Positions 12,095 through 42,965 of a DNA stretch of 57,193 bases are shown here, piece after piece. A program made the position numbers and the translations under genes. Every line of letters starts with the position of its first letter. The first letter of the stretch is position 1. Origin of the DNA: Verrucomicrobiota bacterium (lineage in GTDB: Bacteria > Verrucomicrobiota > Verrucomicrobiia > Chthoniobacterales > UBA10450); NCBI GenBank assembly GCA_003218975.1, contig QHPD01000107.1:1-57193 (forward strand), in the 5' to 3' direction. A model generated the notes under the pieces. It did not search any database. It saw nothing but the letters and a program-made list of their open reading frames with translations, and was not told where the DNA came from.

Positions 12095-13666
12095 ATGCGC
12101 ATACCAGCGCGTGTCTATGGTAGGGACAGCGCGCTGCGCTGTCCGGACGCCGCAGCGCGGCGTCCCTACCACGTTACCACGCTGATTATAGCCTTGTGGG
12201 TCTTAGCAGTGGCGGTGCGGCTGATTTTAATTAATCAGCCGTTCGTCGATCGCTGGAGTTGGCGACAAAGCGATGTCGCGGCGATTGCCCGAAACTTCTG
12301 CGAAAACGGTTTTCGTTTTGCTTATCCGCAGATCGATTGGGCAGGCAGCCCGCCCGGCTATGTCGGGACGGAATTTCCTATTTTGCCGTTTCTGGCAGCT
12401 ATTTGCTACAAATGTGTCGGCGCTCACGAGTGGATCGGACGCAGTGAGTCTGTAATTTTCTTCGCCGTGTCGCTGCCGTTTTTCTTTTTGCTCGTGCGCG
12501 AGACGTGGCCTGGCCTTCTAGGCCATGACCCATCGGCAGGATGCCGAAGCCACGTTGCGGCACTTTGGGCGACGTTTTTTTATGCTTTTGCGCCAGGGAA
12601 CGTTTTTGCCGGGCGCTCGTTCATGCCGGATGTTCCGTCGCTGAGCCTAGCGCTAATCGGTTTATATTTTTTCCTGCGTTGGATCAACGATGGCAAGTCG
12701 AGAGCGTTCTTTCTGGCTGCGATCACGATTTCTTTGTCGATTTTAACTAAGCCCACAAGCGTCGTTATCGCTGCGCCGCTTTTGTTCCTCGTCTGGCAAA
12801 AATGGCGCTGGAATTTTGCGAAACGTTGTGACCTTTGGCTTTTCGCCGCAATTATGGTTTTGCCTTCTGTTGCGTGGTATTGGCACGCGCATCAAATTGC
12901 CGAGAAATTTTATCCGCATCATTTCTTCGGCGAAGGCGGAATCCGGATCGAGAATTTTTCATGGTATTGGGGAATCGCGCGACGGACTACGACATCCGGC
13001 CTCACGCCGATTCTCTCGATGATGGCGCTCAGTGGTTTGTTTGTCGCTCCGCGATCGAGATATTTAAGCCTTTTCCATTGGTGGCTGGCTGGAATGATCC
13101 TCTTCGTCATCGTAGTCGGCTACGGGAATCGCCATCCTTGGTATCAACTTCCGCTTGTGCCGATCGCGGCAGGGTTTGCTGGCGCTGCCTGCGCATTTAT
13201 CAGATCGAAAATCTCCTCTTCGCGGGTTGCGATACTAACACTGTCGATCCTGCTTGCGGGTTCGTTCGCAGCTCTTGCCTGTCTTTATGTGCGGCCGCTT
13301 TACGAATCGTCCGCCGCTCAACTTCGCGACGCCGGCTTGGAGTTACACAAAATCACAGCGCACGATGCATTGATTGTTGCCGCAGACACTGGCGATCCGA
13401 CGATATTTTACTATGCGCAGCGAAAGGGTTGGCACTTCCTCGAGAGAGATGCGATTTACGACGGCAATCCAGGCGACAGTCAGCGGGCCATTGTCGATCT
13501 TGAGCAGCTGCGCAGCCGCGGGGCGACGCATCTTGTTTTCACGGCCAACACATTTTGGTGGTTAGACTATTATCCCGAGTTTGCGCAGCATCTGACGGAA
13601 ACCGCGGCACTGATGGAAATGAATCGCCAGTTCAGAATCTACAAGCTGAACCGTCCTAGGGAATGA
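12095..13666 (+). CDS. Multi-pass membrane glycosyltransferase, GT39/ArnT-like (PMT_2)
   Basis: 523 residues if the ATG at 12095 is used, though residues up to about 26 are encoded by a palindromic repeat and the first natural segment begins near TTLIIALWVLAVAV. About ten hydrophobic segments, an early D-R-W-S-W-R-Q-S-D loop (acidic residues between the first two membrane spans, typical of polyprenyl-phosphate sugar transferases) and GRSFMPDVPSLSLALIGLYFF support a GT39/PMT_2-like enzyme that moves sugar from a lipid carrier outside the membrane. The acceptor is unknown. A second repeat at 12504-12554 is inserted in frame. The stop overlaps the next start (ATGA). Confidence 0.75.
   Translation: MRIPARVYGRDSALRCPDAAARRPYHVTTLIIALWVLAVAVRLILINQPFVDRWSWRQSDVAAIARNFCENGFRFAYPQIDWAGSPPGYVGTEFPILPFLAAICYKCVGAHEWIGRSESVIFFAVSLPFFFLLVRETWPGLLGHDPSAGCRSHVAALWATFFYAFAPGNVFAGRSFMPDVPSLSLALIGLYFFLRWINDGKSRAFFLAAITISLSILTKPTSVVIAAPLLFLVWQKWRWNFAKRCDLWLFAAIMVLPSVAWYWHAHQIAEKFYPHHFFGEGGIRIENFSWYWGIARRTTTSGLTPILSMMALSGLFVAPRSRYLSLFHWWLAGMILFVIVVGYGNRHPWYQLPLVPIAAGFAGAACAFIRSKISSSRVAILTLSILLAGSFAALACLYVRPLYESSAAQLRDAGLELHKITAHDALIVAADTGDPTIFYYAQRKGWHFLERDAIYDGNPGDSQRAIVDLEQLRSRGATHLVFTANTFWWLDYYPEFAQHLTETAALMEMNRQFRIYKLNRPRE
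12119..12170. repeat. GGTAGGGAC...GTCCCTACC palindromic repeat at the start of a gene
   Basis: The ends GGTAGGGAC and GTCCCTACC are a 9-base perfect inverted repeat. Inside are two hairpins (ACAGCGCGCTGCGCTGT and GACGCCGCAGCGCGGCGTC). It lies within the open frame of the following glycosyltransferase, before its first membrane segment, so the true start of that gene is uncertain. Confidence 0.65.
12504..12554. repeat. Palindromic repeat inserted in frame in the glycosyltransferase gene
   Basis: 51 bases bounded by CGTGGC and GCCACG, containing a TGGCCTTCTAGGCCA hairpin and CGGCAGGATGCCG, which is shared with the element at 22960-23016. It encodes about 17 residues (WPGLLGHDPSAGC region) between two membrane-proximal segments and keeps the frame because its length is a multiple of three. 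Confidence 0.65.
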
Positions 13667-24500: not shown

Positions 24501-24578
24501 CGTAGGCACGGCCCTGAGGGCTGTCTCTGAACGTGTTGCGGTGATCGCTGGTGGACCGGTCACAGGCCGGTGCCTACA
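24501..24578. repeat. GTAGGCAC...GTGCCTAC palindromic repeat
   Basis: Ends CCGTAGGCACGGCC and GGCCGGTGCCTACAG are inverted repeats. It occupies nearly the whole gap between the DUF255 gene and the convergent pyrE, so it may serve as a terminator. Confidence 0.6.
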
Positions 24579-29043: not shown

Positions 29044-29093
29044 TTGTAGGGCAACCACATCGGCTCCCGGCAAGCGGAGCGCTTGCCCTACAA
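29044..29093. repeat. TTGTAGGGCAA...TTGCCCTACAA palindromic repeat
   Basis: Eleven-base perfect inverted ends enclose GCTCCCGGCAAGCGGAGCGC. A half element of another subtype (TTGTAGCGGCCGCTGTCC, about 28984-29010) precedes it directly after the secA stop. Together they fill the gap between secA and the convergent Nudix gene. Confidence 0.6.
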
Positions 29094-33985: not shown

Positions 33986-34051
33986 TGTAGAGGCGTTTGT
34001 GCCAAACGCCTGTCTTTTCAAGTTCGGTCGCTTGGCAAAAGCGCTTCTACA
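33986..34051. repeat. TGTAGAGGCG...GCTTCTACA repeat supplying the stop of the FAD oxidase gene
   Basis: Ends TGTAGAGGCG and GCGCTTCTACA are inverted with one mismatch; the first half contains GGCGTTTGTGCCAAACGCC. The minus-strand TAG stop of the oxidase gene (34049-34047) lies in the TTGTAG end. The TGTAGAGGCG end is identical to that of the element inserted in mnmA. Confidence 0.65.
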
Positions 34052-35432
34052 ACTTGGTCGGTTTGAGGTTTTGATTCACGCGGAAAAAATTATCAGGATC
34101 GTATTTGCTTTTAATCGCGACCAGCCGCTCGTAATTACCGCCGTAAGTTTTTTTCACGCGTTCTTCTCCTTCATCTCCCATCAAGAAGTTTACGTATGCG
34201 CCACCAGCTGAGTACGGATGCAGCGCATCGTAATAATTTTTGGTCCACGAAATCGTCTTTTCGTTATTTGCCGGATCGGGATCAACGCCGACCATGACTT
34301 GCGCCCAGGTAGCGTCACGATAATTCCAGGCGGTGTCATTTTTGCCTATGCGTGATGCCGCGCCATTAATCGGATACATATGCATGGTGGAATGCATCGA
34401 CGGCAGCGCCTTACCAAAGTGAATGTGTTGAGCAATCGCTTCATCGCTCAGTTCATTCACAAAATCGGCGCGCCAATACCATTGCAGGCCCGGAGGATAC
34501 AGCGCGTCGAACATGCTTTGTAACGCCGGCTGCGGCAGTGGACCTACAAAATCCAGCGCAGGCTTCTTAAAAGCGCGAATCGGCTTGAATGTTTCTTCCG
34601 CTTTCGTCTGCGGACCAGCGTATGCCCAAACGACGCCGCACATTTTTTTCATGTGCAGATGTTCGGGGAAAGGCGGTGCAGGTGGCACGGTGAGAAATGC
34701 AAAGAAGCCACTCAAATCGTCCGGCGCCGTGGGAATCAGTTCGCGATACCATTTCATCACGTCTGCCGTTTCGCTCAATTCGTAGAGCATCGGGCCGCCG
34801 TAGATCATATCGATCGGGTGCAGCTTAAACGTAAACGATGTTACCACCCCGAAATTTCCGCCACCGCCGCGAATGGCCCAGAACAAATCGGAATTCTCGT
34901 CAGGGTTTGCTTTTACAAATTTGCCGTTCGCCAACACGACATCGGCTGAGAGCAGATTATCGATTGTCAGTCCGCACTTGCGGGTTAGATGGCCGACTCC
35001 TCCGCCCAGGGTCAGTCCACCGACTCCGGTAGTAGAAATAATTCCACTGGGAGTAGCGAGACCGAACACATGAGTGGCATGATCGACATCGCCCCATGTG
35101 CATCCGCCGCCCACGGTAACGGTGCGAGCTGAGGGATCAACACGGGTGTATTTTATCGGTGCGAGGTCGATGACCAGGCCGTTATCACAAATTCCCAAGC
35201 CTCCCGCATTATGACCGCCGCTGCGGATAGCCAGCAGCAGATCATTCTCTCTCGCAAAATTGACTGAACGGATCACGTCTGCCACATCCGCGCAACGTGC
35301 TATCAAGCGCGGCTTTTTGTGGATCATCCCGTTGTAAACCTTCCGGGCTTCGTCATAGTCTTTATCGCCCGGCTCAATCAACCGTCCACGCAGGTTCGCC
35401 TTGAAATTGGCGATAGAGTTTTCGTTAAGCAT
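34047..35432 (-). CDS. FAD-linked oxidase with berberine-bridge (BBE) tail
   Basis: 461 residues. The PCMH-type FAD-binding domain shows LLAIRSGGHNAGGLGICDNG, whose histidine is the usual 8-alpha-linked FAD site, and TVGGGCTWGDVDHATHVFGLATPSG, STTGVGGLTLGGGVGHLTRK. The C-terminus YVNFLMGDEGEERVKKTYGGNYERLVAIKSKYDP is the BBE domain, ending FFRVNQNL. Such enzymes oxidise sugars, oligosaccharides or plant alkaloid-like substrates; the substrate is unknown. In the usual second attachment position a cysteine in the GGGCTWG motif may make a bicovalent link, but I cannot prove it. No signal peptide. The stop codon comes from a palindromic repeat. Confidence 0.88.
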   Translation of the reverse strand: MLNENSIANFKANLRGRLIEPGDKDYDEARKVYNGMIHKKPRLIARCADVADVIRSVNFARENDLLLAIRSGGHNAGGLGICDNGLVIDLAPIKYTRVDPSARTVTVGGGCTWGDVDHATHVFGLATPSGIISTTGVGGLTLGGGVGHLTRKCGLTIDNLLSADVVLANGKFVKANPDENSDLFWAIRGGGGNFGVVTSFTFKLHPIDMIYGGPMLYELSETADVMKWYRELIPTAPDDLSGFFAFLTVPPAPPFPEHLHMKKMCGVVWAYAGPQTKAEETFKPIRAFKKPALDFVGPLPQPALQSMFDALYPPGLQWYWRADFVNELSDEAIAQHIHFGKALPSMHSTMHMYPINGAASRIGKNDTAWNYRDATWAQVMVGVDPDPANNEKTISWTKNYYDALHPYSAGGAYVNFLMGDEGEERVKKTYGGNYERLVAIKSKYDPDNFFRVNQNLKPTKL

Positions 35433-39981: not shown

Positions 39982-41145
39982 ATGAATCGAAAGAAACAGC
40001 GAGTCTTGCTTGGCATGAGCGGTGGAGTGGACTCCAGCGTCGCAGCCTATTTGTTGCGGGAACAGGGCTATGACGTCATCGGCGTGACCATGAAGGTCTG
40101 GCCGCAGGATTGCATCTCGCGCGCAGAAGACAAATGTTGCGGGCCGCAAGCGGTGGCCGATGCGCGCAGTGTCGCTCATTCGCTAGGCATTCCGCACTAC
40201 GTGGTTGATGAAGCCGATCAGTTCGAGCGCCTGGTGATTGATTATTTCTCCAGCGAATACCAGGCTGGCCGGACGCCGAACCCGTGCGTGATGTGCAATG
40301 AAAAACTCAAGTTCGGTAATCTCTGGAGCAAGGCGAAGGCGCTCCGCTGTGATTATATCGCGACCGGCCATTACGCAATCATCGAGCATCACGCCGAAGG
40401 CGCAGTGCTTCGCAAGGGCATCGATCTGCGCAAAGATCAATCGTATTTCTTATTTAGCCTGCGCCAGCCGCAGTTGCGTCGCGCGCTTACGCCGCTGGGC
40501 AGAATGATGAAGCCACAAATCCGCGAAATCGCGCGGTCGTTAGGCTTGAAAGTGGCCGATAAGATCGACAGTCAGGAAATTTGTTTTGTTCCCGGCAACG
40601 ATTACAAAACTTTCCTGCGCTCGCATCTTGGCGACTCGGAATTTCATCGCGGCGAGATTTACGATGTCGATGGCAATTTCGTCGGCGAACATGACGGCAT
40701 TGAGCTTTTCACAATCGGTCAGCGCAAAGGTCTTCCCGGCGGTTCGCCGCGGCCGCGTTACGTTATCGACCTCGATCCGCAAACAAATCGCGTCATCGTC
40801 GGCGATGCCGACGATTTGACCGTGGACGAATTTGAAATCGAGCGCGTGAATTGGATCTCAGATGTAGAGGCGGCTGTCCCCAGCCGCAAGGAGGATCGGC
40901 ATGCGCGTGAGGACATGCGCCTCTACACCAATCTTACAGTGAAGATCCGCTACAATCATCCCGGCACGCCCGCTAGCGTCACGCTGCTGGAGGGTAATCG
41001 TGCTCGCGTTCATTTGCACGAGCCACAGCGCGCGGTGACGCCCGGACAAGCGGCGGTAATCTACGATGGCGACGTCGTCCTCGGTGGCGGCTGGATTTGC
41101 CGGGCCGAGCCGGCCAGGCGGTATGAGGCTGCCGTGCTGGCGTGA
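39982..41145 (+). CDS. mnmA: tRNA-specific 2-thiouridylase MnmA with a repeat-encoded insertion
   Basis: 387 residues. It thiolates U34 of tRNA-Lys, -Glu and -Gln using a persulfide sulfur donor and ATP. Motifs: PP-loop GMSGGVDSSVAAYLL, catalytic cysteine in NPCVMCNEKLKFG, the second in SQEICFVPGNDYKTF, YIATGHYA, DQSYFLF and FTIGQRKGLPGG. Near residues 294-315, after VNWIS, a stretch of about 21 residues (DVEAAVPSRKEDRHAREDM) encoded by a palindromic repeat replaces a short loop of the beta-barrel domain before KIRYNH. The catalytic parts are intact, so activity is probably kept. The next gene (cutA) begins 3 bases after the stop. Confidence 0.93.
   Translation: MNRKKQRVLLGMSGGVDSSVAAYLLREQGYDVIGVTMKVWPQDCISRAEDKCCGPQAVADARSVAHSLGIPHYVVDEADQFERLVIDYFSSEYQAGRTPNPCVMCNEKLKFGNLWSKAKALRCDYIATGHYAIIEHHAEGAVLRKGIDLRKDQSYFLFSLRQPQLRRALTPLGRMMKPQIREIARSLGLKVADKIDSQEICFVPGNDYKTFLRSHLGDSEFHRGEIYDVDGNFVGEHDGIELFTIGQRKGLPGGSPRPRYVIDLDPQTNRVIVGDADDLTVDEFEIERVNWISDVEAAVPSRKEDRHAREDMRLYTNLTVKIRYNHPGTPASVTLLEGNRARVHLHEPQRAVTPGQAAVIYDGDVVLGGGWICRAEPARRYEAAVLA
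40863..40927. repeat. Palindromic repeat inserted in frame in mnmA
   Basis: Ends TGTAGAGGCG and CGCCTCTACA are a 10-base perfect inverted repeat; an inner hairpin is GCGGCTGTCCCCAGCCGC. From GTAG to CTAC it is 63 bases, a multiple of three. The end sequence is identical to the intergenic element at 33986-34051, showing a shared family. Confidence 0.75.
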
Positions 41146-42898: not shown

Positions 42899-42965
42899 AT
42901 TGTAGGGCAAGCGCGCCGCTTGCCTAACCGGAAATTTTTGGCAGGCGAAGCGCCTGCCCTACAAT
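42899..42965. repeat. ATTGTAGGGCA...TGCCCTACAAT palindromic repeat
   Basis: Eleven-base perfect inverted ends with inner arms GCAAGCGCGCCGCTTGC and GGCAGGCGAAGCGCCTGCC. It is related to the element after secA (29044-29093). It lies directly upstream of the permease start and may carry or disturb its promoter. Confidence 0.65.

Follow-up and report, generated by a model that had tools for sequence, protein, structure and literature searches.

The palindrome within mnmA

The window, the whole stretch of DNA analysed here, is 57,193 nucleotides from a soil member of the Chthoniobacterales/Spartobacteria (Verrucomicrobiota; contig QHPD01000107.1). Between positions 39982 and 41145, on the forward strand, it carries mnmA, encoding the tRNA 2-thiouridine(34) synthase MnmA of 387 amino acids (425 bits against an NCBIfam cut-off of 284). 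Within this gene, at 40863-40927, there is a 65 nt GTAG-type palindromic element, TGTAGAGGCGGCTGTCCCCAGCCGCAAGGAGGATCGGCATGCGCGTGAGGACATGCGCCTCTACA, and the reading frame is open across it. The element, designated type A (TGTAGAGGCG...CGCCTCTACA), consists of two inverted REP hairpins. The left REP (40864-40887, forward strand) has a GTAG and the hairpin GCGGCTG/CAGCCGC, the right REP (GCGCGTGAGGACATGCG..CTCTAC; 40903-40926) is in the inverted orientation on the reverse strand, and the spacer that separates them (40888-40902) varies in sequence from copy to copy. The arms of the palindrome, at 40863-40888 and 40902-40927, are 26 nt each and 81% complementary. The predicted fold of 40863-40927 has an energy of -35.5 kcal/mol, against -23.1 for shuffled sequences (z -3.96, matched in 1 of 200 shuffles). 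The element has features by which a REPIN is recognised, an inverted REP pair, a variable spacer and GTAG at the base of the stem-loop. Together, the arms, the fold and the repeat family described below confirm the original prediction that a GTAG-type, REPIN-like palindrome is present in frame within mnmA.

From GTAG to CTAC (40864-40926) the element is 63 nt, or 21 codons, in phase 0 and free of stops, corresponding to V295-Y315 of MnmA. It had been proposed that about 21 residues were added to the protein; this is the coding length of the GTAG..CTAC segment, and the net gain relative to empty-site relatives is 15 codons. The expectation that the frame and the catalytic-type cysteines are kept was borne out, there being no stop and C102 and C201 showing no variation across 32 aligned relatives. 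In an AlphaFold2 model, the inserted residues are placed between the strands at 281-291 and 314-321, with pLDDT block means of 61 and 51 across residues 291-310 and values below 50 for residues 306-311. The proposed loop is supported, and lies between two strands of the C-terminal domain. The element is probably translated, since the frame is kept even in decayed copies. If translated, the element would give MnmA peptides spanning NWISDVEAAVPSR or LYTNLTVK.

The repeat family in the host genome

The host genome is approximately 3.06 Mb in 165 contigs, of which 1.27 Mb was sampled in stretches. The sample includes contigs picked because they carry the element, so copy numbers given here are those of the sample and are not to be extrapolated genome-wide. 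A profile of the mnmA element identified four more full copies of 63 to 68 nt in the 1.27 Mb, all of them intergenic (L187 7472-7535, L181 3370-3433, L181 18978-19045 and L188 4929-4991). Besides these, the profile picked up about ten half copies and, at L182 10822-10886, a more diverged copy that lies within a pyruvate dehydrogenase-like gene. The arms of the type-A copies are similar and their spacers dissimilar. The left REP has 11 matches in the genome with 2 or fewer mismatches, counting both strands.

GTAG hairpins as a class are over-represented, with 155 in the sample where permuted tetramers would predict approximately 34; per GTAG word the rate is 0.037, compared with about 0.008 for most permuted tetramers. 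There are 24 inverted GTAG..CTAC pairs, where 1.7 are expected, and GTAG and the overlapping TGTA rank at the top of the 256 tetramers. Across 117 genomes of the order, type A and the type-B element described below are mostly confined to the window's own family, with a few exceptions.

An intergenic GTAG REPIN is present in the window at 33986-34051, and had been described as having the same ends as the mnmA element. The ends are indeed alike over about 10 nt; beyond this the REP stems differ and the two are not the same element. Given these unlike stems, and its absence from the hits of the family profile, this repeat is a sister subfamily. Its right GTAG appears to provide the TAG stop codon (34047-34049, minus strand) of the gene called at 34047-35432. 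Other-subfamily GTAG..CTAC pairs (GTAGGGACA, GTAGGCACG, GTAGGGCAA) are found in the window at 12120-12169, where the pair overlaps the predicted N-terminus of an ORF, and at 24502-24577, 29046-29091 and 42902-42962.

A separate over-represented sequence in the own-genome sample is the 11-mer AAGATCGACA[AT], whose 12-mers were seen 58 to 63 times against 2 to 3 expected under an order-5 model. It is mainly intragenic and on both strands (119 opposite; 67 in frame as Lys-Ile-Asp), for example in L163-L242. This excess may reflect either a codon-context bias or a DNA motif.

The Y1_Tnp domain (PF01797) has seven matches in the host's own genome (G000). Some copies in relatives are flanked by GTAG REPs, one of these being type-B-like. 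Type-A REPs were not found flanking any RAYT, and the two strongest Y1_Tnp copies of the host have no clear GTAG REP beside the gene.

The name REP refers to extragenic repeats; unlike REPs as named, about a third of the complete GTAG pairs in the own-genome sample sit within genes. Besides mnmA, complete pairs lie in dnaE (L171), rarA (L215), uvrB (L223), argS (L225), a gene for an FAD-oxidase-like protein (L207) and, near the N-terminus, a kinase gene (L219). A single REP is present in uvrA (L208) and further single REPs are in other genes. The GTAG is in phase 0 in 8 of 8 complete pairs within named genes, a count that is biased in part, because a gene would be called shorter where an element lies in a stopped frame. 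The length from GTAG to CTAC is divisible by three in 6 of 8 pairs in genes and 5 of 19 outside (Fisher one-sided p = 0.027, on small numbers), so that the length pattern suggested as a check of the original prediction is seen in this sample. The uvrB and argS pairs are not multiples of three in length, yet the frame of these genes is kept, which requires a compensating change close by. In ten cases, a gene that reads into a REP takes its stop codon from it (10/155, compared with 108/4176 when every GTAG word is counted).

Filled and empty sites among relatives

Relatives lacking the insertion in MnmA exist, as the original prediction required. In the close relatives L027, L028 and L031-L034, the loop between the DEF and KIR anchors is 27 codons and contains no palindrome, compared with 42 codons in the window. 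About six of the loop codons of the host are missing relative to these empty sites. The insertion was thus not clean, with the codons either deleted on insertion or trimmed from the loop afterwards.

Species differ in what occupies this loop: across approximately 100 mnmA loci, no fewer than three palindrome families, unrelated to one another, are found in it. Type A is found in the window and at locus L053. Type B (GTAGCCGGGATC..GATCCCGGC), read as VAGIxDPG, is present in many species. Type C (GGAGGGCGGAGCTCC..GGAGCTCGCCCCTCC) is found at L025, L046, L095, L099 and L101, and the L046 element comes after an apparent type-B remnant. The palindrome class that sits in frame in this loop at the type-C loci (GGAGGGCGGAGCTCCTGCGA..) is without GTAG ends. 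In addition, a second mnmA loop, after ATGHYAIIEH, contains full type-B REPINs in three genomes (G001, G007, G013) and a diverged one in G023. Decayed copies, in which the palindrome is lost and the frame retained, also occur in relatives.

Orthologous sites are therefore both filled and empty, as is the mark of a mobile element. In a MnmA tree made with the loops cut out, the starred branches force at least three changes for each of types B and C; four forced changes for each are seen in a quick MnmA tree.

The pattern is not limited to mnmA. The loops of rarA in relatives are 26 to 27 codons when empty and 39 to 53 when filled. DnaE loops are 14 to 16 codons in distant relatives and 27 to 41 within the genus, and UvrB loops hold different palindromes among relatives, the longest being 92 codons (L259). 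This 92-codon loop (G012:C24) apparently has about three distinct palindromes in tandem, in frame.

Origin of the element and known systems

The mnmA element is most readily explained as a GTAG-type REPIN, presumably moved by a RAYT, that has inserted into the gene and forms part of the translated enzyme (probability about 0.87). Short non-autonomous REPINs would be inserted widely by a RAYT transposase (Y1 HUH) that is blind to genes, and selection would then determine which copies survive, these being intergenic, at the ends of genes, or in permissive surface loops. In phase 2, GTAG yields a TAG stop, which can be tolerated nowhere but at the end of a gene. In phase 0, the word is read as Val (GTA GAG GCG.. 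or GTA GCC GGG..) and the element can be stop-free, so that with a net length that is a multiple of three, and in a surface loop, the protein may survive with an extra peptide that is probably neutral. The loop in the C-terminal domain of MnmA is one such place, where unrelated elements have landed repeatedly, later to decay or be overlaid.

The strong stem of the element is like that of elements that are cut out of the RNA or bypassed during translation, in which case MnmA would be made without the extra residues. This is very improbable, for neither the open frame nor phase 0 in all eight pairs nor the multiple of three in six of them would be needed by an element that is removed, and the decayed copies in relatives keep the frame where there is no longer a palindrome. 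That one loop has been filled repeatedly could instead reflect a benefit from the hairpin or the peptide, such as slower translation of mnmA or a binding surface, maintained by selection. The sequence and length of the loop are, however, highly variable among species, the site is empty in many of them and the palindromes decay; the inserted segment is also among the low-confidence parts of the model, with the block means of 61 and 51. A benefit is therefore unlikely, if less so than removal from the RNA. Least probable of all is a chance palindrome in ordinary coding DNA or an artefact of assembly, for which there is nothing in favour except the low complexity of GC-rich loops. It is refuted by the family copies in the genome, the relatives with empty sites and the similar filling in many genomes independently assembled in different studies.

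A further question is whether the window and L053 inherited type A from a single insertion in a common ancestor or each received it separately at the same nucleotide. The two share the left junction and the phase, and a single clade is not rejected by the AU test (p = 0.26). Against this, the REP arms are identical at 38 of 41 positions between the two, compared with 235 of 300 in the flanking gene DNA and 6 of 15 in the spacer. Arms that are closer than the flanks, joined by unlike spacers, are the pattern of two copies from the family with different spacers. Both trees also separate the two genomes, placing them among different loop types. A single insertion is a serious option, with odds somewhat below even.

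The element is like the REPINs presented by Bertels and Rainey 2011 (PMC3116915), which are two inverted REPs with a variable spacer in many copies per genome. The original prediction that GTAG REPs in coding sequence were undescribed in such organisms was wrong. The main text of Di Nocera et al. 2013 (PMC3733652) describes GTAG REPs within genes and gives the highest GTAG count for Opitutus terrae, itself a verrucomicrobium, where the genes affected include uvrA, DNA ligase and RNA helicases. According to the same text, the intragenic GTAG palindromes in conserved genes are often inverted dimers, with dimers or groups encoding 20 to 30 residues, and the TAG stop of flanking ORFs often comes from GTAG termini. 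It also reports CGTC-type REPs in uvrB and dnaE of Rickettsia conorii, and different REPs at about one site in recB of two Xanthomonas species. Neither mnmA nor the Chthoniobacterales appear in this main text. Relative to what is described there, several unrelated families here fill the same loops, in several genes and in many related species. A paper-library search on palindromes in Udaeobacter found nothing. New here are mnmA as a carrier gene, the Chthoniobacterales as hosts and a dense comparative data set showing the same loops occupied by unrelated REP families.

The parallel that had been drawn with the Rickettsia palindromic elements (RPEs) is supported in that both are inserted in frame into conserved protein genes. 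The RPEs of Ogata and Claverie, reviewed in PMC2229807, are palindromic repeats fused in frame into such genes and tolerated there, and the RPE in gmk was shown to be translated in an active enzyme with altered substrate affinity. Some RPEs are assigned to the CGTC superfamily in the main text of PMC3733652. RPEs are 105 to 146 bp (PMC2229807), whereas the mnmA element is 65 nt, below this range, of GTAG type and in another phylum. By analogy, then, it appears to work like an RPE, and it is not one.

It is possible, though doubtful, that in these soil Chthoniobacterales a few loops of housekeeping proteins (MnmA, UvrB, DnaE and RarA) are standing landing sites for REPINs, where unrelated families insert, decay and are overlaid, perhaps reflecting a target preference of the transposase and providing a steady source of new loops. 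The repeated in-frame REPs in genes for repair, replication and tRNA modification, with empty, fresh and decayed alleles, form a natural series. Such a series could be used to measure how often and where proteins accept random insertions of 15 to 25 residues, and how the peptides evolve. Where marker genes of these bacteria differ by indels, the cause may likewise be mobile DNA instead of a signature passed down by descent.
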